DNA of 51,679 bases, from the NCBI GenBank assembly GCA_019637115.1, contig JAHBWH010000041.1, forward strand, positions 1-51,679, read 5' to 3'. Made by a program: the position numbers and the translations under genes. Position 1 is the first letter of the stretch. The number at the start of each line of letters is the position of its first letter. This document shows, piece after piece, positions 12,405-35,596 of this stretch. The notes beneath the pieces were generated by a model, which was given only the letters and a program-made list of their open reading frames with translations, ran no database searches and was not told the DNA's origin. Source of the DNA: Myxococcales bacterium (GTDB lineage Bacteria; Myxococcota_A; Polyangia; Polyangiales; Houyiibacteriaceae).

Positions 12405-13010
12405 ATGACCGACCTGGCCACGAGCTCCCCTGCCCCGATCCCCGCGTCCACGTTGGACTTCGTGCTCGACGTGCAGTTCGCCGTCGCGTGGGCGGGCGAG
12501 GGGCTGAAGTCGGAGAAGCGGCAGGGCTGGTGGGCGTCGATGTTCGCGTTCGAGTTCGGCGGGGAGGCGCTCTTCGCCGACCTGCTGCCGAACACGCACC
12601 GCTGGGCCGTGCTGCGCGCGGCGCGGGAAGCGGCGCGGCGAAAGGACGCGGAGCTGCGCGCGAAGGCGGACGATCCGGACCGGCTGGTGTCGCTCTTTCG
12701 GCTGGGCTTCGCGCTCGACGAGGCGCTCGAGGAGCGTCTCGCCGACCGGGTGCACGACGACCCGCGGCGCGAGCACACGTCGCGCGCCCTGGCGGCGCTG
12801 ATCGACGCCGACTTCTCCCCCACGTCGTTCACGCGCTTCCTCGAAGGGTTGCTCGCGACGGTCGAGACAGAGGTCGACTTCACGCCGAGCCCGAGCGGGC
12901 GGCGCGTGGTCGGTGAGCCGCCAAAGGACGCGCGCCTGCTGGTGGCGAAGCTCGCGGGCGCCTTGCTGCCACTGGCGGACGCCTACCCCCTCCCCCATTT
13001 CAAGCGGTGA
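12405..13010 (+). CDS. brxE: BREX-6 protein BrxE
   Basis: This 201-aa protein opens the operon and lacks known catalytic motifs. The features seen are VDFVLDVQ-like and AVAWAGEG near residue 25, [13 protein letters not shown] near 43-55, and Arg/Ala-rich helices. Its position directly before brxA and the content of the whole locus match the type 6 BREX arrangement, whose defining small protein is BrxE. Its molecular role is unknown. Its stop overlaps the GTG start of brxA (GTGA). The only upstream sequence is the hexamer repeat, with no clear Shine-Dalgarno sequence. Confidence 0.82.
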
Positions 13011-13842
13011 CCGTGGTGCTCGAGACCCTCGAGGGACGCCCTCCCGTGCGCCCCTCCGAACAGCGCGAGCCGCACACGCGGCTGCTCAAATGCGCGCTCG
13101 AGATCGAGGAGTGCCGGGCCTATTGGTCGCGGCGCGTCGACGACGAAGCACCTACTGCGGAGCGCGCGTTCGAGGAGTTCTGGTTCGGCTCGCGCAGCCT
13201 CGCGCGGGTGCAGGTGCTCCTCTCGAACCTGAAGCTCCGCTTCGACACCTACCCCGACGCGCTCCGGGCCCTGCACCGCTGGTCGACGAGCCCCTCGCGC
13301 ATGTCGCCCGACACGCGCCGCACGATCTGCCACTGGCACCTCCAGCTCGCCGATCCGCTCTACCGCGAGTTCACCGGCCTCTTCCTGCCGGAGCGGCTCG
13401 CCTCGCCGCGCCCCGAAGTCACGCGCGACGTCGTGGTGCGCTTCGTGGCCGAGAGCGACGTCGACGGCCGGTGGACGCACGCGAGCCACGTCCAGTTCGC
13501 GAGCAAGCTGCTTTCCGCCGCCTACTCGGCCGGGCTGCTGCAGCGCACGCGCGATCCCCGACCGATCGTGGTGCCGCGCGTGCCCGACGACGCGCTCGAG
13601 TATTTCGTGCAGCTCCTCCGCCAGCTCGACTTCGCCGGCACCGTCACGCACAACCTCTACTTCGCCTCCGTCGGCCTCGCGGGCGGGCTGCTCGAAGAGC
13701 GCCTCCGCGCGCTCACGAACGTGGGCTTCGAGCGCCAGGGCAGCCTGATGTACCTCGACTACCGCTTCCCGACGGTGAGCGCGTGGGCGGACGCGCGCTT
13801 TCCCCGCGGCGAGGCGGCCGACGACCCGGCGGTCCTTCACCC

Positions 13843-13846
<4 letters not shown>
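13007..13846 (+). CDS. brxA: BREX protein BrxA (DUF1819)
   Basis: This is a core BREX component and a small helical DNA-binding protein in characterised systems. Its 279 aa show DUF1819-type features: LLKCALEIEECRAYW near 20-35, ICHWHLQLADPLYREF near 105-120, and the C-terminal NLYFASVGL segment. The GTG at 13007 overlaps the brxE stop by 4 bp. Two more GTG codons follow within 10 bp, so the exact start is uncertain by a few residues. It overlaps brxB by 4 bp, which indicates tight translational coupling. Confidence 0.88.
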
Positions 13847-14478
<632 letters not shown>

Positions 14479-14603: not shown

Positions 14604-14698
14604 CCCCAGCCCGCCGCCACACCGCCCGACCCCGTTCCCCAAGTCAGCTCACCCTCGACGCGGCTCCGATGCTCGAGAGACACGAGAGGCATCTCGCG

Positions 14699-18310
<3,612 letters not shown>

Positions 18311-18351: not shown

Positions 18352-18453
18352 ATGAAAAAGGATCTTCTCGAGGTCGCGCGGTACGGGGACCGGCTCTGGC
18401 CGCGAAGCGGGAGCCACGCCACCGGGGACGAACGAGGACGGAACCGACGATGA
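18352..18453 (+). CDS. Possible 33-aa leader ORF before pglX
   Basis: A short frame starts ATGAAAAAG, encodes a charged peptide (MKKDLLEVARYGDRLW near its start) and ends in a TGA that overlaps the pglX ATG (ATGA). The first codons are unusually A-rich for this region. There is no homology that I recognise. It may be a translationally coupled leader of pglX or chance. Confidence 0.22.
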   Translation: MKKDLLEVARYGDRLWPRSGSHATGDERGRNRR

Positions 18454-21400
18454 GCATGACGGGTGAGGCGAAGTCGCGGCTGGCGGCGGCGATTCGGGGG
18501 TTGCGGACGTACCTGGTCGGGGATCCGAAGGAGGCCGGGCTGGACGCGGCGCGGGGGGCGCTCGACGAGGCGCTGGAGGGGACGTACCGGCTCTCGCTCG
18601 ACGAGGAGAAGGCGGGGCTCGACGAGGCGGCGCGGCGACGGCGGGCGCGGCTCGTGGCCTGGCTGGAGGAGCAGGGCCGCGCGGACGAGACGGGCGGCAA
18701 AGCGAAGGCGTCGTCGAAGGGCACGAAGCTCGGCCGCGCGGAGGTCGCGCGGCACCTGCACGCGGCGGCGACGCAGGCGGCGTACACGCTCGTGCACCGG
18801 CTCGTCGTGCTGCGGCGGCTCGAGGCGCTGAAGCTGCGGCCGATCGCGGTGGTGACGGGCGGCTTCGAGAGCCGCGGCTACCGCGACTTCCGCGAGCTCG
18901 GCCCGCAGATCCGCGGCGGCGCGAGCGGCGCGTCGAGCGGGCCCTTCTCGGACGGGCTCGGGCGCGGGCTCTCCGGCACTGGCGGGCGCGACGAGACGGA
19001 GGGCTACGCGTTCTTGCTCGACCTCGTCTTCGCGGATCTCGCGACCGAGCTGCCGGGCGTGTTCGGGCCCGCGGGCGTCGCGGAGCTGGTGCCGGTGCCG
19101 GCCGCGGCGCTGCGGCGGGTGGTGGAGACGCTCGACGACCCGGCGCTGCAGAGCGCGTGGACGGACGACCTGGTGCTCGGCTGGGTCTACCAATATTGGA
19201 ACGACCCCGCGCGCGAGGCGCTCGACGACAAGCTCAACCGCGGCGGCAAGGTCGAAGGGCACGAGCTCGCGAGCAAGACGCAGCTCTTCACCGAGCGCTA
19301 CATGGTGGACTGGCTGCTGCAGAACAGCCTCGGCCCCAGGTGGCTCGCGATCTGCGCGCGGCACGGGTGGACCGCGGACCTGAACGCCGTCGGCCCGGAC
19401 GGCGCGTCGACGCTGCAGCGGCTCGAGGCGCGGCGCGCGGAGTTTCGGGAGCGGCGCGAGCGCGGCGAGGTCTCGCTCACCGAGCTCATGCCGCTGCACA
19501 CCGAGCTCGAGCGGCGCTGGGCCTACTACGTGCCGCAGCCGATCCCGGAGGATGCCGTTTCGAAAGCGCCGTCCTCGGTGCGCACGCTGAAGATCCTCGA
19601 TCCCGCGGTGGGCTCGGGGCACTTCCTCGTGGTCGCGCTCGAGCTATTGGTTGCGCTCTACGAAGAAGAAGCGCGGCATCGGGGGCTCTCGCTCGCGGCC
19701 TTCGTGCGGGGTGACGCGGCGTCGAAGGGCGCGGCGAGCGACACGGTCGGTGACTCCGACGACGACGGCAAGCGCCTCGCGGTGGAGCGCATCCTCTCCG
19801 AGAACCTGCACGGCATCGACCTCGACCCGCGCGCGATCCAGATCGCGGCCGCGACCTTGTGGATTCAAGGCAAGGCGCTCGCGCCGAAGGCCACGCCGCC
19901 ACGCCTGAACCTCGTGGCCAGCGACCTGCGCCTCGGCGCGTTGCGCCACGACGACCCCGCGCTCGTGGAGCTGCGCGCGGGGGTGGAGCGCGAGACGGGC
20001 ATGCCAGCGTCGCTCACCGACGCGGTGGTCGGCGCGCTCAAGGGCGCGGATCACCTCGGCAGCCTCTTGAAGATCGATCGCGCGGTGGAGGAGGCGCTCG
20101 ACGCGCACGAGCGCGCGCTCGGGCTCGGCGTGAAGTTCGCGCCCACGCAGACCTCGCTCTTCGGCGAGAGCACGCCCCAACAAGGGCAGATGGTCTTCGA
20201 CCGCGAGGAAGCGCGCGCCTCGCTGACGGAGCGGCTGGAGACGTTTCTCGCGCGCCACACCCGCGCGGACGACCTCGGCCTCCGCCTCCGCGGGGAGCAG
20301 CTCGCGGCGGGCGTGCGCCTCGCGCGGATGCTGGGGGAAGGGCAGTACGACCTGGTGGTGGCGAACCCGCCCTATCAGGGGACCGCGAAGATGGCGGACG
20401 CGAAGTACGTGGCCGCTCGGTATCCGCTGGGGAAGGCGGATTTGTACGCGGCGTTTCTGCTGCGCGGGCTGGAGCTGGTGCGGGAAGGTGGGGTCAGCGC
20501 GATGCTGACCATGCGGAACTGGATGTTCATCAAGCAGTACGCGGGGCTGCGGGAACATCTGCTTTCGACATTTGATCTTCGCGCGCTGTCCGACCTCGGC
20601 ACTGGAGCGTTTAGCAGTCGGTCGATGGACGACGTGATCTCTTCTGCGATGGTGATCTTTCGAGCCACGAGGCCGGAGGGTAGAACGGTCGCGCTTCAGA
20701 CCGGGCCGCTCGCGGATCCCCGCCGGGACGCGGAGAAGCCGCTGCGCCGCCGGACCGCATTGGAACATCAGGAAGGACGGTACGAGTTCGACCCCGCGGC
20801 GGTGAAGGTCGTACCGGAGTGGCCGCTGGTGTACTGGTGGGGAACCGACTTCATCGAGCTATTCACCCGGCATAGACCATTCGGCGTACTCGCCCCTGCG
20901 AACAAAGGCATTTGCACGGGAGACGACACGAGAACTCTGCGGAGAGCATGGGAGGTCTTCGTGCGTCGCAGGTGGCAACCAACGATTCATGGGGCCAAGG
21001 GAATCGCGTGGTTTGAGCCATGTCAACTTGCCATTGACTGGTCCGCCGGCGGTCTGCTATTTGGTGTAATGGAAGAGTCCGGGCGAGGCACGCGATTCCA
21101 GGGCAAGCAGTTCTACTTTCGTTCCGGCGTATCTTTCTCGATGATCGGGTCGAGGTTCGTAGCCAGAATCCACAGATTTCGCAGTGTCTTCGGCGACAAG
21201 GGATCATCCATTTTTCCATCTGATACCCGAGCTGCAGTCTGCGCCATGAACCGAAGCCTTTCGCGAGAAATACTGAACTCACTGAATCCGTCTATTAGCT
21301 TTCAAGTGGGTGACGTAAACCGTCTTCCCTGCCTATCCGTCGATGGCTCGCCGGTTATCGCGCGCCTTCTCGATAACGCCTTCACCCTTCACGAATCCCA

Positions 21401-23339
21401 CCGCGAACCCTCCGTCGAGTTCCGCACGCCCGGCCCCTCTCCCTGGCGCCACGCCCAAGCGTGGGCCCAGACCGCGGTCGACCGCCCCGAAGGCGCGCCG
21501 CTGCCGGAGTACGTCGAAGAGCTCGATCCGGAGCCGGCCAGCGATCACGTGAGCTTCGCGCTCGGGGTCGCGCTCGGGCGTTTTGGTGCGAACGGGGAAG
21601 GGATCGTGGATCCGAAGACGGGGCGGCCGGTGCCGGTGCCCACGCCGACCTTCTTGGGGGAGACGGACGTGGCGGCGGGGGCTGCGGCTCGAGCGGGTGC
21701 GACTCGGACGGGGAAGGCGGATCGCGCGACGGGAACGGACACGGAGACAGAGGCAGAGACCGAGTCCGCGCTTCGCGCGACGGGCACGGGCATGGGCACG
21801 GGCACGGGCACGGGCACGTCGACCGCCGCGAGCGCAGCCGCGGACGCCGACGGGCCGGACCTGCTCGTGCACGCGTTGCCGCACGGGCTGCTCTTCCTCG
21901 ATCGCACGCTCGACGACGCGGACCTGCGCGACGGGCTCGGGCATCCGGCGGCGAAGGGGCTGCACGAGGCGTGGGCGACGTACGGGCCTTCGCACGCTTC
22001 GCAGTGGACGACGCGGAGCTCGCTGCGCGACTTCCTCGCTTTGGACTTCTTCAAGGACGTCCACAAGGGGATGTACGAGAACCGGCCGATTCATTGGCCG
22101 ATCTCTTCCGAGAAGAAGACCTTCGTGACGTGGGTGAACATTCACCGGATGGACGCGCGGACCTTGAAGGTGCTGCTCGCGGATCACCTGCTGCCGCGGC
22201 TCACGCAGATCGAGGGCGAGCTGGCGGACCTGCGCGCCGCGCGGGACGGCGCGGATCGCAAAGCCGCGAAGACGGCGGAGAAGCAGCTTGGCAAGCTGCT
22301 GGCGGCCAAGGACGAGCTGGAGACGTTCGTGGCGGACGTGGCGCAATGCGCGGAGCGCGGCCCGTTGCCCATCGATCCGAAATGCCCGCCGCGCGAACGC
22401 GACGCGCCCTACGCTCCCGACCTCGACGACGGCGTGATGATCAACTCCGCCGCGCTCTGGAAGCTGCTCGAGCCGCAGTGGAAAGACCCGAAGAAGTGGT
22501 GGAAGGAGCTCGCGAGCGCAGCGCCCGCGCCGGAGGACCCGAAGAGCAAGGCGACGCTCGCGGCTGACCCCGCGAGCACATGGGTGGAGGGGGGCCCCGT
22601 CCGGGCTTTGCCCGGTGGGGGGAGGGGCGCCGGAACGCCCCTCCGAGCAGGAAAGGGCAAGGACTACGACTGGTCCCACCTCGCGATGCGCTACTTCCCC
22701 ACGCGCGTCGACGAGAAGTGCCGCCGCGATCCGAGCCTCGGCGTCGCCCACGGCTGCTTCTGGCGCTACCACCCCGAGCGCGCGTGGGCGTGGGAGCTGC
22801 GCCTGCAAGACGAGATCGGCACCGCGGAAGACGGGGGGCCCTTCCGGATTCGCGAGGCGCCGTACCGCCCGGGCGGACGTGACCTCGGTGACGGCGACCT
22901 CGGCGACTCGGGCGACGAAGCCCTCCGCGCCACCTTCCTCCGCGATCACCCCGAGCTCGCGATCGCCGCGCTCGAGAAAGAAGCGATCCGCCGCATGGGC
23001 CGCGGCGCCAAACGCAAACGCGTCGACACCTTCGAGCTCCACGAGCCCGGCCTGTGGAGCACGCACGCGGCGACCCTCTACGAGCTCGAGCTCAGCCTCA
23101 GCGAACGCCAAGGCCACCCGCTCACCATCCACGCCCCCGACGAGCCCGAAGCCCGCGCCGCCTACGAGCAGGCCCACCCCGAGGCCGTCTCGGACCGCAA
23201 GCACCGCCTGGCGGCCCTGAAGCCGCTGGAGCTGCTGGGGGACGGGGACGACGACGACGGTCCCGACGACGACGGTCCCGACGACGACGGTCCCGACGAC
23301 GACGGTCCCGACGACGACGGTCCCGACGACGGCGACTGA
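18450..23339 (+). CDS. pglX: BREX adenine-specific DNA methyltransferase PglX
   Basis: This methyltransferase marks host DNA at the BREX motif (N6-adenine). Of 1629 aa, methyltransferase motif I is D384-PAVGSGHF and motif IV is N639-P-P-Y642. The stretch coding about residues 705-1000 (20,560-21,450) is much less GC-rich, with codons rare elsewhere. It overlaps the expected target-recognition region, so it may have been exchanged. Downstream are low-complexity Thr-Gly repeats (21,780-21,820), a palindromic in-frame segment (22,601-22,644) and a C-terminal DDDGP tandem repeat. The gene ends 1 bp from the convergent NTase gene, and pglZ lies 4.1 kb further on. Confidence 0.93.
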   Translation: MSMTGEAKSRLAAAIRGLRTYLVGDPKEAGLDAARGALDEALEGTYRLSLDEEKAGLDEAARRRRARLVAWLEEQGRADETGGKAKASSKGTKLGRAEVARHLHAAATQAAYTLVHRLVVLRRLEALKLRPIAVVTGGFESRGYRDFRELGPQIRGGASGASSGPFSDGLGRGLSGTGGRDETEGYAFLLDLVFADLATELPGVFGPAGVAELVPVPAAALRRVVETLDDPALQSAWTDDLVLGWVYQYWNDPAREALDDKLNRGGKVEGHELASKTQLFTERYMVDWLLQNSLGPRWLAICARHGWTADLNAVGPDGASTLQRLEARRAEFRERRERGEVSLTELMPLHTELERRWAYYVPQPIPEDAVSKAPSSVRTLKILDPAVGSGHFLVVALELLVALYEEEARHRGLSLAAFVRGDAASKGAASDTVGDSDDDGKRLAVERILSENLHGIDLDPRAIQIAAATLWIQGKALAPKATPPRLNLVASDLRLGALRHDDPALVELRAGVERETGMPASLTDAVVGALKGADHLGSLLKIDRAVEEALDAHERALGLGVKFAPTQTSLFGESTPQQGQMVFDREEARASLTERLETFLARHTRADDLGLRLRGEQLAAGVRLARMLGEGQYDLVVANPPYQGTAKMADAKYVAARYPLGKADLYAAFLLRGLELVREGGVSAMLTMRNWMFIKQYAGLREHLLSTFDLRALSDLGTGAFSSRSMDDVISSAMVIFRATRPEGRTVALQTGPLADPRRDAEKPLRRRTALEHQEGRYEFDPAAVKVVPEWPLVYWWGTDFIELFTRHRPFGVLAPANKGICTGDDTRTLRRAWEVFVRRRWQPTIHGAKGIAWFEPCQLAIDWSAGGLLFGVMEESGRGTRFQGKQFYFRSGVSFSMIGSRFVARIHRFRSVFGDKGSSIFPSDTRAAVCAMNRSLSREILNSLNPSISFQVGDVNRLPCLSVDGSPVIARLLDNAFTLHESHREPSVEFRTPGPSPWRHAQAWAQTAVDRPEGAPLPEYVEELDPEPASDHVSFALGVALGRFGANGEGIVDPKTGRPVPVPTPTFLGETDVAAGAAARAGATRTGKADRATGTDTETEAETESALRATGTGMGTGTGTGTSTAASAAADADGPDLLVHALPHGLLFLDRTLDDADLRDGLGHPAAKGLHEAWATYGPSHASQWTTRSSLRDFLALDFFKDVHKGMYENRPIHWPISSEKKTFVTWVNIHRMDARTLKVLLADHLLPRLTQIEGELADLRAARDGADRKAAKTAEKQLGKLLAAKDELETFVADVAQCAERGPLPIDPKCPPRERDAPYAPDLDDGVMINSAALWKLLEPQWKDPKKWWKELASAAPAPEDPKSKATLAADPASTWVEGGPVRALPGGGRGAGTPLRAGKGKDYDWSHLAMRYFPTRVDEKCRRDPSLGVAHGCFWRYHPERAWAWELRLQDEIGTAEDGGPFRIREAPYRPGGRDLGDGDLGDSGDEALRATFLRDHPELAIAALEKEAIRRMGRGAKRKRVDTFELHEPGLWSTHAATLYELELSLSERQGHPLTIHAPDEPEARAAYEQAHPEAVSDRKHRLAALKPLELLGDGDDDDGPDDDGPDDDGPDDDGPDDDGPDDGD
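22601..22644. repeat. REP-like double hairpin inside pglX
   Basis: Two perfect hairpins lie next to each other in the reading frame. CCGGGC-TTT-GCCCGG spans 22601-22615, and the second has a 9-bp stem, GGAGGGGCG (22621-22629) with CGCCCCTCC (22636-22644). They encode a Gly/Pro/Arg-rich linker unlike the sequence around it. This looks like a palindromic repeat unit captured in the gene; no second copy was noticed here. Confidence 0.5.
23250..23324 (+). repeat. Five 15-bp units coding DDDGP at the PglX C-terminus
   Basis: Five exact copies of GACGACGACGGTCCC encode Asp-Asp-Asp-Gly-Pro repeats that form an acidic tail ending in DDGD. The unit is in frame, so copy number can change without a frameshift. 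Confidence 0.9.
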
Positions 23340-23340
23340 C

Positions 23341-24174
23341 TCAGCCCGCTTCGACGAGTCTCAGAAAGCGCTGAACGGAGCCGACGACGTCGGCCTGGGT
23401 CGCGGCGTCGAGCGTCCCGTGGATGAACTCGGCCGCCCCTCGTGGACCAGGTGCGTTCGTGCCGTGGAAGTCGTCCTCGAGGCAGGTGAGCGCCAGGGCG
23501 GCGTCTGGATCGCCAACGAGGGGAAGGAAACGGGTTGCGACGTCGGTGACGTCGTCGCCGTAGTGCTGGAGCACGTAGAAGAGATCGTAGGCATCTTTGT
23601 TCTCGGTCCTTCGGTGGAACGCCAACGCCTTGAGCACCATGTACGCGCCAGCACCGCAGACCCACACCTCTCGCGCCGCGTCCGCGCCGTCGAGGGTCCG
23701 ACCTTCGATCCGGATCTTCTCTCGATCCCGAAACGCGCATTGGAGCCCCGGGATCACGAACGCCGCGAAGTCACGCTCGAGGTTCTGCAGCTTGCCCCCC
23801 GTCGAACCACGGCTGGGCGGAATCAGAAAGTCGACGGTCACCCCGCCTTCTCCGACCCATCGCTGCCGCGTCGGCTTGCCGTCTTCGGTCTTGTCCATGG
23901 CGAACCCCGCGCCGCGCAAGCGTTCGCTCAAGGTCCGGTATTGCTCCTCGTCGAAGAGCGCGAGGCTGAGTCCGACGTCGAGATCGAGCGTGCCGACGTG
24001 GGGGTCGCCCTCTTCGGGCGGTGGAATGAGGAGTGAAGGAACGAGCCCGCCGACGATCACGAGCTCGTCCATGAGGTCGCCCACCTTCGTCGCGATGGTG
24101 AGGCAGGTCGCGCGGACGAGGTCGAGCTGCTCGTTCGAGTACGCGCTGGCGTGCTTGGGCTTGAGGGGCGGCAT
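23341..24174 (-). CDS. AbiEii-like nucleotidyltransferase (toxin candidate)
   Basis: The 277-aa protein has a DNA polymerase beta-type nucleotidyltransferase motif, VIVGGLVPSLL (G42-G43) followed by TLDLDV (D64 and D66), and a later KDAYDLFYVL. This pattern matches AbiEii/AbiGii toxins, which modify tRNA 3' ends in characterised cases. It is the second gene of a leftward two-gene operon, 9 bp after the AbiEi-like gene, and converges with pglX at a 1-bp gap. It could alternatively be a non-toxic NTase. Base composition looks less GC-extreme than brx genes, consistent with insertion of a separate module. Confidence 0.78.
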   Translation of the reverse strand: MPPLKPKHASAYSNEQLDLVRATCLTIATKVGDLMDELVIVGGLVPSLLIPPPEEGDPHVGTLDLDVGLSLALFDEEQYRTLSERLRGAGFAMDKTEDGKPTRQRWVGEGGVTVDFLIPPSRGSTGGKLQNLERDFAAFVIPGLQCAFRDREKIRIEGRTLDGADAAREVWVCGAGAYMVLKALAFHRRTENKDAYDLFYVLQHYGDDVTDVATRFLPLVGDPDAALALTCLEDDFHGTNAPGPRGAAEFIHGTLDAATQADVVGSVQRFLRLVEAG

Positions 24175-24183
24175 CGTCGAACG

Positions 24184-25233
24184 TCAGGCCCAGGTGGGCA
24201 TCAAGAGCTCCGAGCGCAACCGCTCCGCTGCCTCCGCCGCGCGTTCCGGATGCGCCTCGAGGTCGAGCGCGGCCTGAACCGGATGGACGCAGCGCACTTC
24301 GTCGTGGACACCGGCGCCAGCGAAGATCCCCGCGTCGTTGGGCACCACGAGCCAGAGGTTCGCGCCTCGCGGGTCCGCACGAAAACCGAGGCGCTCCTCG
24401 AGCTCCGGGTCGAGCTCCGACGCCAAGTAGAAGGTGGCGACTCGAAACGTCGCGAAGTGCGTCATCTGCCACGCCGCGGAGAGCCCGGTGGCCGCGTGCT
24501 CCACGGCGGCCTCGGCAAGGGTGTCCGCGACGAAGCGGGTCAGCGCGCTTCCCGTCCGCGCGGCGACGTGACCGCGAATCGACGTGTGCTTGTCGAAACG
24601 GTACTCGTCACGCCAGGCCTCGAAGAGAAGCGGCGGCTGGGGCACGCGGACGAGGCCGTCCTCACGGGTCACGAGCTGCTGTTCCTCCAGGCGCGAGAGC
24701 ACGCGGCTCACCAACCCTTGGCTCACCCCCGTTCGCTCCGCGAGCTCGTGCTGGGGGAAGGCGCCCTTCGGGTGCATCAGGAGCCAGCGGGTGATTCGCG
24801 CGCTCTTCGGCGCGAAGGCGCTGCTCGGACGGCCGCGCTTCGCGAACGCGTTGGGGTTCCCTTCGACGATCACCCGGAGGCCGGGCCCCGTGATGTGCGC
24901 GTTTCCGCTGAGGTCCAACCAGGACACCGCGGCGCTCTCACACACGCGCTTGCCGGCAGGCGTCATGAAGGGCACCACGACGAGGGGAATGGCCGCGCGG
25001 CGTAGCTTCTTCACCGACGAAACGAGGCTGGTGGCCGCCGTGCGAACGACTCCCGGTGAAGACGACGCCTCGACCCCCACCACGAAGAGCCGGTCCTTGG
25101 TGCGAAGGGCGAGGTCGACATGGGGGTCACCAACATCCGACGCGAGCTCCACTTCTTGCCGCGCGAGCGAGAGCGCGCCGGCCAAAGCGCTCGGCACCCG
25201 TTTCTCCCAACGTTTTCCGGCCGACGTCGGCAT
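24184..25233 (-). CDS. AbiEi-like antitoxin and autorepressor candidate
   Basis: The 349-aa protein precedes the NTase in the same operon. Its N-terminal half resembles an endonuclease-like fold common in large AbiEi-type regulators, with LFVVGVEASSSP near 50 and SWLDLSGNAHI near 105. A winged helix-turn-helix follows (about 130-180, HELAERTGVSQGLVSRVLSRL). The C-terminal part is mixed alpha/beta. Antitoxins of this group neutralise AbiEii and repress their own promoter through inverted repeats. A 54-bp palindrome starts 3 bp before its ATG, which fits that model. Confidence 0.72.
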   Translation of the reverse strand: MPTSAGKRWEKRVPSALAGALSLARQEVELASDVGDPHVDLALRTKDRLFVVGVEASSSPGVVRTAATSLVSSVKKLRRAAIPLVVVPFMTPAGKRVCESAAVSWLDLSGNAHITGPGLRVIVEGNPNAFAKRGRPSSAFAPKSARITRWLLMHPKGAFPQHELAERTGVSQGLVSRVLSRLEEQQLVTREDGLVRVPQPPLLFEAWRDEYRFDKHTSIRGHVAARTGSALTRFVADTLAEAAVEHAATGLSAAWQMTHFATFRVATFYLASELDPELEERLGFRADPRGANLWLVVPNDAGIFAGAGVHDEVRCVHPVQAALDLEAHPERAAEAAERLRSELLMPTWA

Positions 25234-25236
25234 CTC

Positions 25237-25290
25237 GTTTACTAAATAGACGATCTTTACCTCACAGTAAAGATCACTTGTTTGGTAAAC
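25237..25290. promoter_or_regulatory. 54-bp interrupted palindrome, operator of the AbiE-like operon
   Basis: The inner arms are ATCTTTAC (25253-25260) and GTAAAGAT (25267-25274). The outer arms are GTTTACTAAA (25237-25246) and TTTGGTAAAC (25281-25290, one mismatch). Both pairs share one centre. This AT-rich block stands out in the GC-rich surroundings. On the - strand, TTTACT and TATTTA with 17-bp spacing could be a promoter giving a nearly leaderless transcript of the AbiEi-like gene. Confidence 0.7.
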
Positions 25291-25301
25291 CAGCGCGGGC
25301 G

Positions 25302-25376
25302 GGCGCCGCGGTGGACCAGGCGCACCGCCACCTGGAGCAGAGCCGGGTCGCCCTGCTCTTCCCGCGCTTGCCCGAG
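25302..25376 (+). pseudogene. 75-bp duplicated fragment of pglZ
   Basis: Bases 25302-25376 match 28818-28892 inside pglZ at 74 of 75 positions, in the same orientation. The fragment codes GAAVDQAHRHLEQSR and onwards in one frame but has no start and diverges after LPE. It lies between the AbiE operator and the ImmA-like gene. It looks like a scar left when the insert entered next to, or recombined with, pglZ. The remaining bases up to 25492 show no gene; a TACCGT element 9 bp before the next ATG may be a leaderless promoter. Confidence 0.85.
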
Positions 25377-25492
25377 AGTCGATTGAACCTCGAGGCGGCG
25401 TCTCGCGTTCGTTTCCTCCAAGCGTTGCGGGCGCTTAGAGCCCGCGGAAGTCCGTCGAACGTGGCCCCCTCGCGTGCTACCGTGTCGGCTCC

Positions 25493-26863
25493 ATGACTTC
25501 GGTGGGCGAGCGCATTCGCGAGGCACGGGACGCGGCGAAGATGAGCGACGAGCTCCTCGCCAAGCTGGCCTGCGTGGAGCTCGAGGCGGTGCGGGCGGCG
25601 GAGGCGGGCGGGGACGCGCTCTCCGCCGCGGAGGTCGATCGGATCGCGCAGGTGTTCGGGGTTCGTCGACGAGACTTTCTCCGCACGGGCGCGGCGCATG
25701 CGCCCCTCACGCTGCTCCTTCGCTCGAGCCACGATGACGGGGTCGAGGCCGAGGTGGCGCGCGAGCTCTCGTCCGGGCTCGGGGAGTTCCTCCGCGTCGT
25801 GAGTGACGTGGCCGAGCTCGAAGCGGCGCTCGGTCGACCGAAGGTCACGCTTCCGAGGCCGCCGCGGCTGCATCGACCGCGCGGCGAGCACGCCGGAGAG
25901 CAGCTCGCGCGCTCGGTGCGCGCACACCTCGGGCTCGGCGACGCGAAGCGGATTTCGTCGATGCGACGCCTGGTGGACGAGCTGGGCGTTCGCGTGATCT
26001 GGGTGACGGAGGCGCAGCTCGACCGCCGTATCGACGGCGCGTCGACGCTCACGCCACGTCCCGCGATCCTCGTGAACCTCTTGGACCTCGAGCGCTTCCC
26101 GTGGCGCGCCCGGATGACGCTCGCGCACGAGCTCTGCCACCTGCTCTACGACTACAAGCGCGCGCGGCCGGCGCTGGTCAGCCCGCAAGTCGTGAAGTGG
26201 GGATCGATCGCCGAGATCGAGGAGCGCGCGCGCGCGTTCTCGGCGTGTTTGCTCGCGCCGACCACGGGGGTTCGTGCGTTGGTCGATGGGCTCGACCCCG
26301 CGAGCGACGAGGCGGTGCGACGGGTCGGCGAGCGTTTCGGCGTGGGCCAGACGGTGGCCATCAACCGGCTCCAGCACACCTTCCGACTCTCCGCGGAGAC
26401 ACGCTTGCAGATGCAGCGTCGTTCGGTGGTCTACGAAGCCGACTTCTCCGGCGACCTCGTCGAGCCACACGAGGTGGGGTTCCGAAACGGCGTGCTCGAA
26501 GCGTTGGTGCGCGAGGCGTTGCGCTCGAAGAAGGTGAGCGTGGTGAACGCACGCCAGCTGCTCGGGCTTCGCGCCTCGGAGCCGCTGCCCTTCGAGGAGC
26601 TCCCGCTCGAACGACGCGCTCCAGTCGTCGCAGATGGCGAGGACATCCGTCGGAAGGCGGAGCGGCTGCTCCACGAGAAGTGGCCCGGCCTCATGGCGAC
26701 GCACGCCGAACGGCGAGGGAACGCCTGGCAGGTGCAGGTCGTCGAGGGCGGCATTGGCCGTCGTGCGGTGCTCTGCGGCCACCTCGTGCTCTCGGCGAGC
26801 GGGGAGCTGCTCGAGTCGCGCCTTCAGCTCGACTCAACACGCTCCGACGCGTCATCCGCATGA
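25493..26863 (+). CDS. XRE-ImmA/IrrE-type metallopeptidase
   Basis: The 456-aa protein has an N-terminal helix-turn-helix-like segment (GERIREARDAAKMSDELLAKL, about 4-24) and a central M78 peptidase domain with the zinc motif H-E-L-C-H near 211-215 and a third-ligand region EERARAFSACLLAP. A distinct C-terminal domain (about 330-456) is of unknown function. ImmA-type peptidases cleave repressors or antitoxins when triggered by stress or phage. Its ATG-TGA overlap with the next gene ties it to the C39-like peptidase. It is placed inside the BREX locus, divergent from the AbiE-like operon. Confidence 0.85.
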   Translation: MTSVGERIREARDAAKMSDELLAKLACVELEAVRAAEAGGDALSAAEVDRIAQVFGVRRRDFLRTGAAHAPLTLLLRSSHDDGVEAEVARELSSGLGEFLRVVSDVAELEAALGRPKVTLPRPPRLHRPRGEHAGEQLARSVRAHLGLGDAKRISSMRRLVDELGVRVIWVTEAQLDRRIDGASTLTPRPAILVNLLDLERFPWRARMTLAHELCHLLYDYKRARPALVSPQVVKWGSIAEIEERARAFSACLLAPTTGVRALVDGLDPASDEAVRRVGERFGVGQTVAINRLQHTFRLSAETRLQMQRRSVVYEADFSGDLVEPHEVGFRNGVLEALVREALRSKKVSVVNARQLLGLRASEPLPFEELPLERRAPVVADGEDIRRKAERLLHEKWPGLMATHAERRGNAWQVQVVEGGIGRRAVLCGHLVLSASGELLESRLQLDSTRSDASSA

Positions 26864-27351
26864 TCGTGGCGCACCACGCGCAGTCCTTCGTCAACTCGTG
26901 CACCCCCGCGTGCGCCTGCATGATTCAGAAGCGCCGTGGGCTGTCGCCGACCGAGGCCGCGTTCCACGCGGGCGCACCGACAGCGGGATACGACGTTGAG
27001 CAGATCGTGGACGCGGCCTGGCTTTCGGGGGTTCGTAAGGCCTCGCTCGGACCTGACGAAGAAGATGAGCTGCGGGTCGCGGTAGACACGGGCGATTGGG
27101 CGGTCGTGAAGCTCGCGACGGCGCGGTACGGACCGTGGCTCGCGGCCCAGAAGCCACGCCGAACGTCGCGTCACGGCGACCTCTGGCAGCCCGGCGAGTG
27201 GGCCTACCACTCGGTCGTCGTCGTCGACTACGACGCGAGCTCGTGGAGCCTGCTCGATCCGTGGTTCTCCGCGACGGGTCAGCCGTTGATGATCCCGGAC
27301 ACGACATTCTCCGCGTGTTTCGCGGGCCTCGCCGTGATCGCGCAACGCTGA
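26860..27351 (+). CDS. C39-like (papain-fold) cysteine peptidase
   Basis: The 163-aa protein has the layout of a stand-alone papain-like or C39 peptidase: Q8 and C14 in HAQSFVNSCTPACACMI, H117 in WAYHSVVVVDYD and D133 in LLDPW. No signal peptide or transporter domain is present, so a cytoplasmic role is likely. Translation is coupled to the upstream ImmA-like gene (ATGA overlap). The pair may form a two-step protease switch. A bacteriocin-maturation role is less likely because no ABC transporter or precursor peptide is nearby. Confidence 0.7.
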   Translation: MIVAHHAQSFVNSCTPACACMIQKRRGLSPTEAAFHAGAPTAGYDVEQIVDAAWLSGVRKASLGPDEEDELRVAVDTGDWAVVKLATARYGPWLAAQKPRRTSRHGDLWQPGEWAYHSVVVVDYDASSWSLLDPWFSATGQPLMIPDTTFSACFAGLAVIAQR

Positions 27352-27485
27352 CGCGGAACCCGATGGCGCGGCGTCCGTTGGCGATGCGGTGAAGCAGCCC
27401 GTCTTCGGTAGACGACGACTTTCGCGTACGAATCCGAGGACTTTCGTGGCATCTTCGGCCTCCGGCGACGGGAGCGGGGTAGAGG

Positions 27486-30400
27486 ATGGAGTTGCAGGAG
27501 CAGGCCGCGACGGACGCGACGAAGAGCGCGCTCGGGCCGGTGTCGGAGGCGCTGCTGCGGGAGCTGCGGGAGTACACGCGCAAGCACGGCGTGGTGCTTT
27601 GGCTCGACGGCGCGAACCACTTCGGCGGCTTTGTCGACCGGCTGCTCGCGACGCGGCCACGCGAAGGCGAAGGGGGCGCGGAGGCCCGTGGTGACGGACG
27701 CGCGCATGGCTTCTCGGTCCGCGCCTTTCGCGGGAGCTACCTCGAGCTGATGCTCGCGCTCGACGGTGTGGCGGGTGGGGCGGCGAAGGTGCCGCTGCTG
27801 GTGCACCTGCCGGGGCTCGACGAAGAGTCCGTGAAGCTCACGCCGATCTACGAGCTCTACGCGGCGGGCACGCGGTTTCGGAAGGCGCTGCCGACGCTGA
27901 TCACCGAGGCGGCGGCCGGGCTGGTGAAGCCTGAGCGCATCTCCGCGGTCGCGAGCACGGCGTCCCTCGCGGAGGCGGACGCTTGGCTCGCGCGGGCGCT
28001 GCAGTCGTCCGAGGACGACGACGGCCGCGAGCTCCGCACGCAGCTCGACGCGCTGGGGCCCAAGGGCGTCATGGACGACCTGATCGGCGAGGGCTTCTTG
28101 ACGCCGCGCCTCGTCGAGCCCGAGGTCCGGAGCGCGATCGCGGAGCGGATGGCGACCTGGCTCGGGGTCGGCGACGCGTGGCGGGAGCTCTCGGTCGTCG
28201 GAGAAGTCGCGGGCGCGCGCCAGCACGCCGAGCACCTGGCCTTCGTCTTCGCGAGCTTCGCGATGGCGGTCGAGTACGTCGACGACCTGAGGCGTCCCCC
28301 GGTGCAGGAGCTGCTGGCGCCGCTCGCGAGGCTCCCGAAGCCACTGAAGGAGACGGGGCGCGAGCTGGCCAAGCACCTGCGCAAGCGCCACGACGCCTTC
28401 TACGAGCGCATCGCGAATGAGACGGAGGCGCTGATCCCGGAGGAGAAGCTCCGCGCGAAGGCGGAGGACCTGGGAGACGTCGACACCTTCCGCTTCGAGG
28501 AGGAGGTGCTGCTGCGCGCGGCGCTGGCGGCGCTCGACGGGGAAGACTTCGCGCGGGCGGCCGAGTGGGCGGAGCTTCGGCTCGGCGCGCGGGCCAAGAA
28601 GGCGGCGGGCAAGGCGGGCAAGGCGGGCAAGGCGGGCAAGGCGGCCCAGGCGGAGACGAAGCGCCGGAGCTCGACCTATTGGTTGCGCAAGAGCCCCGAG
28701 CGGCGCTCAGCGTGGCAGCTCGTGCTCGACGCGGCGCGGGTCGGGCTCGCGGCGCAGGCGGCGGGCGAGCTGCGCGCGAAGACCCTCGCCGACGCGCTCG
28801 CGGCCTACCGCACGCGCGGCGCCGCGGTGGACCAGGCGCACCGCCACCTGGAGCAGAGCCGGGTCGCCCTGCTCTTCCCGCTCTTGCCCGAGTACGAGTC
28901 GCTGCGCGCGCAGCTCGATCGGGCGCGCGCGGTGTGGCTGCGCTTCGCCGACGCCTGGGCCGCGTCGTTCAACGCGCTCTGCGAGGCCGAGGGCTTCCTG
29001 CCGCCGCCCGCCCTCCAGCAGCGCGCGCTCTTCGACGAGGTCGTGCGCCCGATGACGAAGGACGGCCTGACCGCGTACTTCGTGGTCGACGGGCTGCGCT
29101 TCGAGATGGGCGAGGAGCTCTTCCGCATGCTCGACGGGTCGGTCGCGGCGACGAGCGTGCGCCTCGACGCGCGGCTCGCGGAGCTGCCGACGGTGACGGA
29201 GGTGGGCATGAACGTGCTCGCGCCGGTCGCCGACGGTGGGCGGCTGCGGCCCTCACTCACGGCGGAGGACCGCGGGAAGGTTGTCGGCTTCTCGACCGGC
29301 GAGCTCGTGGTCGGGACGCCGGAGACGCGGCGGCGCACGATGCACGAGCGCGTCGGCGGTGGGCAGTGTCCGTGGCTCGAGCTCGACGAGGTGGTGAGCC
29401 GCGACGTCACCTCGCTTCGGCGGTCGGTGGCGCAGGCGAAGCTCGTGGTGGTGCACGCGATCGAGATCGACAAGGCCGGGGAGAGCGGCATCGGTCCTTC
29501 GGTCTTCGCGAGCAGCCTCGGGAAGCTGAAGGCGGCGTGGCGCTTGCTGCACGACGCCGGGGTGCGACGCTTCGTGTTCACCGCCGACCACGGCTTCCTC
29601 CTCCACGACGGAGTGCCGATCGCGGACGGCGGCACGATCGCGGTGCAGTCGCAGGGACGAAAGATCGACCCCCAACGCCGCCACGTCTTCACCTCGGCCG
29701 CGACCGACCACGAGGGCGAGGTGCGGGTCCCGCTCTCGGCCCTCGGCTACGAGGAGACGGGCGCGCACGTGCGCTTCCCGCGGACGACGGCGGTCTTCGA
29801 TCGCGGCGACCGGTCGAAGAGCAACTACGTCCACGGCGGCAACAGCCTGCAGGAGCGGGTCATCCCGGTGCTCACGGTGGTCCATCGCGCGGCCGCGGGC
29901 GCGACCACGCTCCGCTACGTGGTGCGCGGGTCGCGCGGGGAGCCCTTGGCCGGCCTGCAGTGCGTGCGCGCGGTGGTCGAGGTCGCCGCGCAGCGGAGCC
30001 TCGAGTTCGAAGGCGCGGCCGAGCTGGAGCTCGCCCTGCGCGCGACCGACGACGCGGTGCAGGCCGAGCTGGTGGACGTGCGCGGCGGGGGGCGGCGCAC
30101 CGACGCGGGCACGGTGCTCGCGCGGGTGGGACAGGAGCTCGAGATCTTCTTCCGGCTCGCGACGAGCCAGGCGGTGGAACGCGCGCAGATCGAGCTCTCG
30201 CACCCGAGCAAGATGGCGGACGTCGAGCCCGCGACCTTGGCGGAGTACTTCGAGGTGATGCCGCGGACCAAGGCCAAAAAGGGCGAGGTCGACGTCGACG
30301 TCGAGCATGATGCTGACGCTCGAACCGCCTCGACTCCGCCCGGGTCGGGGGCGTGGCTCGACGCCTTGCCGGAGGTGGCGCGGGGGGTCTTCTCGCACCT

Positions 30401-30566
30401 CGCTCAGCACGGCGCGATCACCGAGGAGGAGATCGTGCGCAAGCTCGGCAGCACGCGCGCGGCGCGACGCTTCGCGCTGCAGTTCGAGGTCTACGCGCAG
30501 CGCGTGCCCTTCGGGACGCGCATCGACTTCGTCGGCAACCTCAAGCGATACGTGAAGGTCTCATGA
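27486..30566 (+). CDS. pglZ: BREX protein PglZ (alkaline phosphatase-fold)
   Basis: This is a core BREX protein of the alkaline phosphatase superfamily, 1026 aa. The PglZ domain shows FVVDGLRFEMGEEL near 530 and VFTADHGFLLHD near 697, the usual metal-site segments. A Lys/Ala/Gly repeat (AGKAGKAGK) lies near 377. The last ~68 residues form a predicted winged helix (HLAQHGAITEEEIVRKLGS) that resembles the C-terminus of the large helicase ORF ending at 35631. brxD overlaps by 4 bp. The 134 bp before the ATG hold no gene but contain two GACTTTCG direct repeats (around 27,416 and 27,440). Confidence 0.93.
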   Translation: MELQEQAATDATKSALGPVSEALLRELREYTRKHGVVLWLDGANHFGGFVDRLLATRPREGEGGAEARGDGRAHGFSVRAFRGSYLELMLALDGVAGGAAKVPLLVHLPGLDEESVKLTPIYELYAAGTRFRKALPTLITEAAAGLVKPERISAVASTASLAEADAWLARALQSSEDDDGRELRTQLDALGPKGVMDDLIGEGFLTPRLVEPEVRSAIAERMATWLGVGDAWRELSVVGEVAGARQHAEHLAFVFASFAMAVEYVDDLRRPPVQELLAPLARLPKPLKETGRELAKHLRKRHDAFYERIANETEALIPEEKLRAKAEDLGDVDTFRFEEEVLLRAALAALDGEDFARAAEWAELRLGARAKKAAGKAGKAGKAGKAAQAETKRRSSTYWLRKSPERRSAWQLVLDAARVGLAAQAAGELRAKTLADALAAYRTRGAAVDQAHRHLEQSRVALLFPLLPEYESLRAQLDRARAVWLRFADAWAASFNALCEAEGFLPPPALQQRALFDEVVRPMTKDGLTAYFVVDGLRFEMGEELFRMLDGSVAATSVRLDARLAELPTVTEVGMNVLAPVADGGRLRPSLTAEDRGKVVGFSTGELVVGTPETRRRTMHERVGGGQCPWLELDEVVSRDVTSLRRSVAQAKLVVVHAIEIDKAGESGIGPSVFASSLGKLKAAWRLLHDAGVRRFVFTADHGFLLHDGVPIADGGTIAVQSQGRKIDPQRRHVFTSAATDHEGEVRVPLSALGYEETGAHVRFPRTTAVFDRGDRSKSNYVHGGNSLQERVIPVLTVVHRAAAGATTLRYVVRGSRGEPLAGLQCVRAVVEVAAQRSLEFEGAAELELALRATDDAVQAELVDVRGGGRRTDAGTVLARVGQELEIFFRLATSQAVERAQIELSHPSKMADVEPATLAEYFEVMPRTKAKKGEVDVDVEHDADARTASTPPGSGAWLDALPEVARGVFSHLAQHGAITEEEIVRKLGSTRAARRFALQFEVYAQRVPFGTRIDFVGNLKRYVKVS

Positions 30567-31869
30567 GCAATCCCGTCGAGCACGTCTTCGAGTCGCTGCG
30601 AAAGGGCCTCGTGCCCGAGCGCGGCATCGACACCTTCGCGGTCGGGGTGGACCGCCCGCGGGGAGAGCTCCACCGCCAGCTCGAGCTCGCGGCGAAGGGC
30701 GAAGGCACGATCAAATTCCTCCGCGGCGGCTACGGCTGCGGCAAGACCTTCATGGCGCGCCTCGCGATCTTGGACGCGCAGCAGAAGGGCTTCGCGACGA
30801 GCTTCGTAGTCGTCTCCGACAACGACCTGAAGTTCCACCGCTTCGACGAGCTCTACGGCAAGGTGATGGCGGAGCTGAGCACCGCCGTGTGTCCGCGCGG
30901 CGCCCTCGGCGACATCCTCGACCGCTGGATCGCGCGCATCGAGGACGCGCTGATCGAGGCGGGCGTGGACGAGGACGCGCCGGACTTCTCCGCGCGAGTG
31001 CGTAAGCGGCTCGACGAGGACCTCGCGTCGCTGACCGGCGGCAAGGCGCCGCAGGACTTCGTGCGGGTGATCCAGACCATCTTCGACCTCAAGGAGAAGG
31101 GCGAGATCGCGGAGGCCGGCGCGCTCATCTCGTGGCTGGCGGGCAGCGGCAACGTCTCGGCGAGCGCGAAGAAGGCGGCGAGCATCAAGGGCGACATCGA
31201 GAGCCGCGACGCGCTCGAGTACCTCCGTGGGGTGCTGGAGATCGTGAAGGCCGCCGGCTACGCGGGGCTCCTGATCGTGATCGACGAGGCGGAGACGATC
31301 CTGCGGACGCGCTCGGACTCGCGGCACAAATCGCTCAACGGGATCCGGCAGATCGCGGACGCCTCTGGCTCGTACCCCGGCCTCTTCTGGCTCTTCACGG
31401 GCACCCCGGAGTTCTTCGACTCGCGCCAAGGGGTCGCCGGTCTGACCGCGCTCCACGACCGGATCCGTTTCCTCAAGCAGGGCAAGTTCGCGAGCCCGCG
31501 GCAAGCACAGCTCGAGCTGGAGCCCTTCGACGCGGAGCGCCTGCGCGGCGTCGCGTTGCGGCTACGCGACCTCTACCCGGCGAAGGATCGGGACCGGCTC
31601 GAGCGGCTCGTCAGCACCGCGTTCATCGACCGCCTGGTGGCGGAGGTGACGAAGGGCTTCAAGGGCGACGTGGGCGTGGTGCCGCGGCAGTTCCTTCGCG
31701 AGTTCGTGAACGTGCTCGACAGCACGGACGACTTTGACGACTACGACCCCAACACCGAGTACGCGTTCACGCCCGAGCCGCTGAACGCCGAAGAGCAGCA
31801 TCGCCTGCACGGCGGTCAGGTCGAGGTGCCGGACGACGACGACGGCCCGGTGCCCGTCGAGGACGTGTG

Positions 31870-31873
<4 letters not shown>
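30563..31873 (+). CDS. brxD: BREX ATP-binding protein BrxD
   Basis: The 436-aa P-loop ATPase belongs to the BrxD (DUF2791-type) family. Walker A is GGYGCGKTFMA near 54-64, Walker B-like LLIVIDEAE lies near 236, and a sensor-like FWLFTGTPEFF near 275. In types 2 and 6 BREX, BrxD accompanies BrxHI and replaces the BrxL effector. Start and stop codons overlap both neighbours (ATGA with pglZ, GTGA with brxHI), so the three are co-translated. A role as motor or loader for BrxHI is inferred. Confidence 0.9.
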
Positions 31874-34671
<2,798 letters not shown>

Positions 34672-34684
34672 CCCTGGGGTGCCG

Positions 34685-35596
34685 ATGACCGTTCCGACCT
34701 ACGCCGAGATGATCGAGCCCTTGCTGCGTGTCCTTCACGAGCGTGGCCCATTGCGCGCGAGCGAAGCACGCCTGGCGGTCGCCGACCGCATGGGACTCAC
34801 GGAGCAGCAGCGTTCCGAGCTGCTGCCGAGCGGGGCGCACGCCCGCTACGCGCACCGTGTCGGCTGGGCGCAGGACAGCACGAAGCGACACGGTCTCACC
34901 ACCTCGGAGAGCTGGGGTACGTGGCAGCTCACCAAGGCGGGCCGAGAGCTGCTGGAGAAACATCCGCAGGGCCTCCCGGCGGAGGAGGTGCAGCGCATCG
35001 CCACGCAGAAGCGCAACCTCTCGATCGCGGAGATCTTGAGCGGTGAGCCTGAAGGCCCCCACCCGATCCCTCCCATCAGCAGCGAGAGTCCGGAAGAACG
35101 GCTCGAGGCGGCGCTACAAGAGATTCGCGCCACCGTCGCGCGCGAGCTGCTCGAGCGCATCCTTGCGGCACCTCCAGAGTACTTCGAGGGCCTCGTGCTC
35201 GAGCTCCTTCACGCGCTCGGCTACGGAACCTCGCGCAGCGATCTACAGCGCGTGGGCAAGAGCGGCGACGCGGGCATCGACGGAGTGATCGCGTTGGACC
35301 GGCTCGGACTGGAGAAGGTCTACGTCCAGGCCAAGCGGTGGCAAAGCAACGTCGGACGCCCTGAGTTGCAGGCCTTCTTTGGGGCCCTCGCGGGACAACG
35401 CGCGCGCAAGGGCGTGTTCATCACGACCGGCGGCTACACGCGCGAGGCGCTCGAGTTCGTTGCCACCGTGCAGGACTCGATCGTCGTCGTCGATGGGGCA
35501 CGCCTGACCGAGCTGATGATCGACTACGCGGTCGGCGTCGGGCATCGCGTCGTGAAGCTACCCCACGTCGACACGGACTTCTTCGAGCCCGCATGA
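34685..35596 (+). CDS. Mrr-type restriction endonuclease
   Basis: This is a probable type IV (modification-dependent) restriction enzyme, 303 aa. An N-terminal winged-helix Mrr_N-like domain (about 1-90, with WQLTKAGRELL) precedes the PD-(D/E)XK domain: FEGLVLELLHALGYG, GDAGIDGVI (Asp near 199) and VYVQAKRW (Q-x-K near 215-217). ATG 34685 lies 13 bp after brxHI, so it may be read through from the BREX operon. Such enzymes cut DNA with foreign methylation and would complement a system that marks host DNA. It converges with the large helicase gene. Confidence 0.87.
   Translation: MTVPTYAEMIEPLLRVLHERGPLRASEARLAVADRMGLTEQQRSELLPSGAHARYAHRVGWAQDSTKRHGLTTSESWGTWQLTKAGRELLEKHPQGLPAEEVQRIATQKRNLSIAEILSGEPEGPHPIPPISSESPEERLEAALQEIRATVARELLERILAAPPEYFEGLVLELLHALGYGTSRSDLQRVGKSGDAGIDGVIALDRLGLEKVYVQAKRWQSNVGRPELQAFFGALAGQRARKGVFITTGGYTREALEFVATVQDSIVVVDGARLTELMIDYAVGVGHRVVKLPHVDTDFFEPA

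Follow-up and report, generated by a model that had tools for sequence, protein, structure and literature searches.

Within a pglX gene of a Myxococcales bacterium, the third codon positions change from almost uniform G or C to a mixture with many A and T and then return, which raises the question of whether this stretch records an exchange of the domain that reads DNA. A first-pass annotation had placed such a lower-GC block at 20560-21450, between the methyltransferase motifs and the C-terminal region, where a target-recognition domain (TRD) would fit, and had taken it for a probable exchange altering the methylated motif. The gene lies in a stretch of 51,679 nucleotides, analysed in full and called the window here, which also holds the complete BREX-6 gene set, brxE-brxA-brxB-brxC-pglX-pglZ-brxD-brxHI, with 8 of 8 genes in the expected order at 12405-34671 and three extra genes between pglX and pglZ:

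12405..13010, + strand: BrxE (PADLOC BrxE, 193.9 bits)
13007..13846, + strand: BrxA (PADLOC BrxA, 346.8 bits)
13864..14478, + strand: BrxB, conserved part of the ORF at 12913-14478 (PADLOC BrxB, 286.1 bits, ORF aa 318-520; Pfam BrxB)
14669..18310, + strand: BrxC/PglY (PADLOC, 1744.9 bits; NCBIfam BREX_BrxC, 680.2 bits)
18450..23339, + strand: pglX, predicted BREX-6 adenine-specific DNA methyltransferase of 1629 aa (NF033455 BREX_6_MTaseX, 1830.4 bits, cut-off 900)
20364..20375, + strand: catalytic motif IV NPPY, aa 639-642 of PglX (translation; Eco57I and N6_Mtase Pfam matches)
27486..30566, + strand: PglZ of BREX-6 (NF033443, 1038.1 bits)
30353..31873, + strand: ORF of BrxD, which probably starts further downstream (NF033438, 531.5 bits, match beginning at aa 75)
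31867..34671, + strand: BrxHI helicase (PADLOC BrxHI, 1109.6 bits)

The translated PglX contains both DPAVGSG and NPPY, the motifs of gamma-class adenine methyltransferases, along with the Eco57I and N6_Mtase Pfam matches, and the NPPY motif has been described in PglX/BrxX (PMC11842806). The gene is the PglX of this BREX-6 operon; in a comparative study of BREX, Type 6 is placed under Type 1 as one of its subtypes (PMC12839542). Inside the operon, 23341-25233 (- strand) encodes an AbiEii-like nucleotidyltransferase (weak match, under the Pfam cut-off) and a MarR/wHTH protein, a stretch that is also found at ~74% nucleotide identity in L007, the sister locus used below. The stretch at 25263-27406, between pglX and pglZ, holds an HTH plus IrrE/M78-like protein (25493-26863) and has no counterpart at the corresponding place in L007. 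Directly 3' of BrxHI is a gene resembling Type IV methyl-directed restriction enzymes (34679-35596; mREase_IV, 306 bits), and at 35631-37745 (- strand) lies an ORF with matches to PDC-S37 and Hhe models, of which residues 623-700 weakly match the C-terminal end (875-954) of the PglZ profile. DDDGP tandem repeats at the PglX C-terminus (window 23250-23330) differ in L007, and the window's own genome has a second, distant PglX-like gene (G000:C223:42537-46043; 31-50% identity by piece).

The compositional change in pglX was delimited as a single maximal-scoring segment:

20553..21407, + strand: low-GC3 segment, codons 702-986 (maximal-scoring segment)

Here 101 of 285 codons end in A or T, and GC3 is 0.65 against 0.915 in the background, defined as codons 1-600 and from 1001; the segment scores 79.2, the best of 2000 permutations 22.1. 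Total GC falls to 0.505 at 21100-21299, with surroundings at ~0.72, and GC3 is back at background after ~21400. These measurements bear out the lower-GC block and its place between the methyltransferase motifs and the C-terminal region, the block starting downstream of NPPY. Inside the dip, aa 777-803 (20778-20858, 27 codons) keep the high GC3 of the core (observed minus expected, +0.02 in the window gene), so the low-GC3 block is really two blocks.

Only one close homologue of the window pglX was found: L007, from the MAG Myxococcota Prado145, which belongs to the same genus as the window organism. The two cores share 92% of their amino acids in aa 181-704 and 88% from aa 981 onward, and the intervening part falls into three segments:

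20583..20777, + strand: cassette 1 (B1, aa 712-776), C-terminal edge of the methyltransferase (MTase) domain; 29% amino acid and 41% nucleotide identity to L007
20778..20858, + strand: hinge island (aa 777-803), MTase/TRD junction, probably native; 78% amino acid identity to L007 overall, 90% over aa 779-798
20859..21389, + strand: cassette 2 (B2, aa 804-979/980), target-recognition domain; 38% amino acid and 49% nucleotide identity to L007

The right edge of the exchanged block is sharp, at 21390, and the left edge softer, at 20550-20597. Blastn against L007 aligns the flanks and a separate 66-nt HSP at the hinge (20775-20840, 92.4% identity), which is the only HSP within 20612-21389. The first-pass annotation had expected an exchange to appear as a loss of identity confined to the block, and uniform identity to a close homologue to speak against it; the flanks are ~90% identical to L007, and the drop is confined to the block.

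Could the block nevertheless be orthologous in both genomes, having diverged in place under strong diversifying selection with no exchange? ConSurf ranks the TRD as the most variable region of BrxX (PMC11842806), as this reading would have it, but synonymous codons tell against it. Where the two proteins share a residue, the codon is identical in 81-83% of cases in the core (random expectation 56-58%), compared with 39% in B1 (random 31%) and 40% in B2 (random 36%), that is, near random inside the block and ~82% outside. Because selection on amino acids would not saturate synonymous sites, B1 and B2 differ in descent from those of L007, short of a mutation rate many-fold higher within the block; identical cassettes within otherwise different E. 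coli genes, described below, also count against divergence in place, which we regard as highly improbable. Going by the aligned sequences, B1 and B2 have evidently been replaced rather than accelerated in place. The earlier claim of a domain exchange in pglX is therefore upheld, whereas a single exchanged block fits the data less well than two cassettes on either side of a hinge that was kept.

Against two cassettes it can be argued that B1, hinge, and B2 were replaced at once as a single cassette and that the hinge seems native only through strong constraint. The codon test at the hinge has low power: 15 of 18 same-residue codons are identical to L007, where 0.57-0.58 would be expected from core usage and 0.73 from the hinge's own few codons, and since the latter expectation is already so high, the test alone does not prove the hinge native. 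Added to this core-like figure are a 92% nucleotide match to L007, like that of the core, and a core-like GC3 in the window gene, and it is likely, though less firmly shown than the replacement of B1 and B2, that the hinge of this gene was never replaced. Moreover, hinge residues vary across lineages, with a mean identity to the query of 0.49 at aa 781-800, and constraint alone would therefore not dictate the match to L007.

Relatives of the window gene bear on both points. We aligned 77 BREX-6 PglX homologues, leaving out duplicates, matches below 350 bits, and those that began beyond aa 450 or broke off short of aa 1000. Fifteen close pairs (aa 181-704 identity at least 0.85, every region measured, one same-gene pair excluded) were compared, and B2 nucleotide identity is below that of the core in all 15. 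The hinge (aa 779-797) is kept at 91% nucleotide identity or more in 7 of the pairs, which belong to the window's genus or to one of two groups of Nostocales, and was replaced with the rest in the other 8, as a single cassette would predict. Across the family, B1 and B2 identities are evidently unrelated to each other (Mantel rho -0.07, one-sided p 0.79; 2414 pairs, 70 taxa), while in the same set N- and C-terminal core identities correlate (rho 0.71, N vs C2) and B1 identity still follows core ancestry weakly (rho 0.29, p 0.002). Some B2 seem to be of more recent origin than the core around them; in L065/L042, for example, excess fourfold identity is 0.53 in B2 and 0.17 in the core. Two loci have unusual pglX genes: a Nostoc favosum PglX ORF (L086, 9922-12814) lacks in frame everything aligned to query aa 556-935, and with it NPPY, cassette 1, the hinge, and most of cassette 2, and a Polyangiaceae MAG (L046, 5821-13517) has a tandem pair of pglX-like ORFs.

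The two cassettes can also be followed in BREX-1 of E. coli. Megablast with an E. coli pglX query finds a match in 56 of 5426 genomes, with at least 80% query coverage in only 5; the remaining matches are flanks around an unaligned middle, or partial. Twelve intact alleles were compared, namely L194 and 11 of 13 that were fetched, the two broken ones being left out (L206 and L214, annotated as broken and adjoined by IS elements or their remnants). Their N-terminal parts are 95-100% identical. Cassette 1 begins after NPPY and runs up to the hinge, where cassette 2 takes over to cover the TRD and part of the spacer. L203 and L212 have cassette 2 in common (100% amino acid identity, BrxX 669-836) and differ in cassette 1 (27%, 586-640); L194 and L203 have cassette 1 in common (100%) and differ in cassette 2 (52%); and L211, L212, and L215 combine one cassette 1 with three different cassettes 2 (42-46%). 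A module search of the 5426 genomes gave the same pattern. One cassette 1 (at least 95.7% nucleotide identity) recurs in 8 genomes, paired with at least three cassettes 2, and another (at least 99%) in 7 genomes, paired with two; one cassette 2 is present in 4 genomes, of which two carry the first and two the second of these cassettes 1. On this allele comparison, cassettes 1 and 2 of E. coli evidently reassort independently across the hinge.

These hinge crossovers weigh against replacement in one piece. That reading can still point to a hinge type conserved even in E. coli (KIPGSPIAYW-like) and to a hinge that has, family-wide, part of the GC3 shift described below, and we consider it unlikely. 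The E. coli reassortment and the swap relative to the sister genome together suggest that BREX changes its target by recombination.

What the two cassettes correspond to in the protein was approached with an AlphaFold model of PglX aa 600-1060 (45-sequence alignment, mean pLDDT 83). Its best PDB matches are PglX/BrxX chains, among them 9ewz_C (Z 18.1, rmsd 3.8 over 375 residues); across the part modelled, the window PglX shares 21-23% identity with the solved chains. In the sequence alignment to 9ewz_C, B1 holds the loop matching BrxX 587-601 and B2 corresponds to the TRD. When E. coli BrxX was solved with DNA, this MTase-domain loop was seen to read base pair 6, and the TRD (651-837) base pairs 1-4, with hinge loops at 638-675 (PMC11842806). 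The B1 loop of the window allele (GTGAFSSRSMDDVIS) is common to L047, L068, and L069 and differs in the sister L007. The Type I HsdS chain 1yf2_A matches model residues 205-373 (Z 10.1, rmsd 3.3, 138 aligned), and of ten Type I methylase rows, eight go no further than model residue 198, with 5ybb_A and 7eew_A extending past the hinge. Since methylase rows end at 198 and HsdS starts at 205, the hinge (model 178-204) lies at the junction of an M-like and an S-like part. The proposed position of the block in a TRD is thus supported by sequence and by structure matches to solved PglX/BrxX chains and a Type I HsdS chain.

Does the composition of the block also record the exchange, as the first-pass annotation held in calling it a typical sign? 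Among homologues with more than 200 TRD codons, GC3 of the TRD is below same-gene codon-usage expectation in 75 of 75, AT-richer hosts included (L086 and L044, which lack much of the TRD, are out, and L116 and L123, one gene, are counted twice). Low GC3 is therefore not itself a mark of import, and recent import inferred from composition alone was rejected. The shift averages about -0.2, in hosts whose core GC3 ranges from 0.38 to 0.96. At aa 701-980 it is strong, with a family mean of -0.11 in the hinge and weak shoulders at aa 651-700 (-0.08) and 981-1056 (-0.07), and it all but vanishes in the variable regions at the N- and C-termini of PglX. Two controls agree. When the amino-acid-matched expectation was matched for the next base as well, 77 of 77 homologues, query included, were below it; and GC12-matched windows in BrxC, BrxD, BrxHI, PglZ, and the PglX core stay within 0.03 of zero, whereas matched TRD bins with at least 10 windows shift by -0.14 to -0.23.

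The same drop is seen in the L007 allele (TRD GC3 0.69 vs 0.93 expected), in Nostocales with core GC3 of ~0.40 (TRD GC3 0.20-0.26), and in 12 of 12 E. coli pglX alleles (-0.11 to -0.18). Among other PglX types, 10 of 12 are below expectation, some by just 0.05-0.08, and both exceptions are Lactobacillaceae. Of 30 MmeI_TRD loci, two were skipped, and GC3 is lower in 24 of the 28 with a usable core; for HsdS loci (one skipped) the figure is 16 of 28, measured against control ORFs picked by length, which are unreliable in GC-rich DNA.

It could still be that low GC3 by itself records a recent import from a low-GC donor, a reading compatible with the other explanations. The contrast in the window gene, 0.65 against 0.915, would suit it; a pool with GC3 near 0.2-0.25 and partial adjustment to the host would fit most rows, and such a pool would also fit the absent shift in the two Lactobacillaceae, with core GC3 of 0.23 and 0.29. 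However, besides the 75 of 75 homologues, the L007 allele, and the Nostocales, TRD GC3 follows that of the host with a slope of 0.84, and the shift is also present in the L082/L023 TRD, which is of about the same age as its core; GC4 in B2 is 0.52 there, compared with ~0.8, although an AT-rich ancestor at ~0.24 would also yield 0.52. We therefore hold a recent low-GC import to be doubtful. The shift at large may reflect either continual import from an AT-rich pool, partly adjusted to each host, or a bias that is actively kept up; either way, this part of pglX has lower GC3 in general, which is not evidence of recent import here. The literature searched gave no account of a general synonymous A/T shift in TRDs, and the shift is a warning that low GC3 in a TRD is not proof of recent import.

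Searches of partial scope found no donor. The best block match in a partial search of 282 sampled phylum genomes is 51% identical in amino acids; among PglX homologue loci the best B1 reaches 69% and the best B2 48%; the best-ranked plasmid match reaches 43%, with all 165 plasmid records below 60%; and a scan of viral contigs able to find close relatives only returned none. The partial genome, viral, and plasmid searches found no second carrier of the block of the window allele. Phase variation of pglX from silent cassettes was considered and rejected: no silent TRD cassettes were found in two draft genomes (98% and 89% complete), and at E 0.01 the window's own draft genome (98% complete, 434 contigs) has just pglX and one distant paralogue (27-29% identity), with no additional TRD copies.

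Taken together, the block is very probably the DNA-reading part of a BREX-6 PglX, exchanged by recombination as two cassettes around a conserved hinge. The exchange would most simply proceed by homologous recombination anchored in the conserved flanks. Cassette 1 would be the edge of the MTase domain with the loop for base pair 6, cassette 2 the TRD for base pairs 1-4, both by analogy with E. coli BrxX, and the conserved hinge would serve as the joint between them, so that each half could be replaced on its own. A new pairing should then yield a new 6-bp site that is methylated and restricted; we infer that the DNA site changes through exchange and that phage pressure drives it. With less confidence, though still in its favour, we extend this to a general view in which BREX specificity is a two-cassette combinatorial system, with MTase and TRD half-site readers exchanged independently by hinge crossovers, in BREX-1 and BREX-6 alike, new 6-bp sites arising from re-paired halves, and third positions shifted toward A/T in nearly all lineages tested.

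PglX sets the sites that BREX methylates and therefore which phages BREX can exclude. If specificity is made of two interchangeable halves, recognition sites would become predictable by halves from sequence, and natural hinge junctions would suggest joining points for working chimeras. Three hybrids in which a short E. fergusonii loop was placed into E. coli BrxX (loop 587-601) lost defence (PMC11842806); the natural exchange units in E. coli exceed that loop, extending from just after NPPY to the hinge.

The closest known systems are BREX-1 BrxX/PglX of E. coli HS and Salmonella (PDB 9ewz, 8c45), which are alike in fold and order, MTase domain-hinge-TRD-spacer with a variable TRD, but differ from the BREX-6 protein of the window by the low identity given above. 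In BREX-1, the MTase loop and the TRD jointly read a 6-bp site, engineering has changed specificity, and phase variation of pglX has been mentioned (PMC11842806, PMC11341690); that the pglX genes of E. coli HS and Salmonella diverge internally was already noted (PMC9009780). The parts of these published accounts available to us do not describe hinge reassortment of two cassettes.

A second likeness is to Type I HsdS, where two exchangeable DNA-reading units give specificity and a conserved segment joins them; cassette 2 of the window matches the HsdS fold (1yf2_A). The domain order in HsdS is TRD1-conserved-TRD2 (PMC12707154). In PglX, by contrast, a single methyltransferase polypeptide carries both units, the first of which belongs to the MTase fold and is not a second TRD. 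Type IIL/IIG methyltransferases such as MmeI and DrdV also join MTase and TRD in a single chain and match the PglX model in structure (5hr4_J, Z 10.9; 7lo5_A, Z 11.2), and MmeI resembles PglX in the lower GC3 of most of its usable TRD loci. These enzymes are not known to come with a BREX operon. MmeI differs further in carrying a nuclease (PMC11341690). In the literature searched, nothing describes two PglX cassettes reassorting around a hinge that is kept. Furuta and co-workers, whose work is among the references of PMC12839542, reportedly described TRD domain movement in methyltransferases, with specificity domains moving between genes. To such movement, PglX would add the pattern of two cassettes with a kept hinge.
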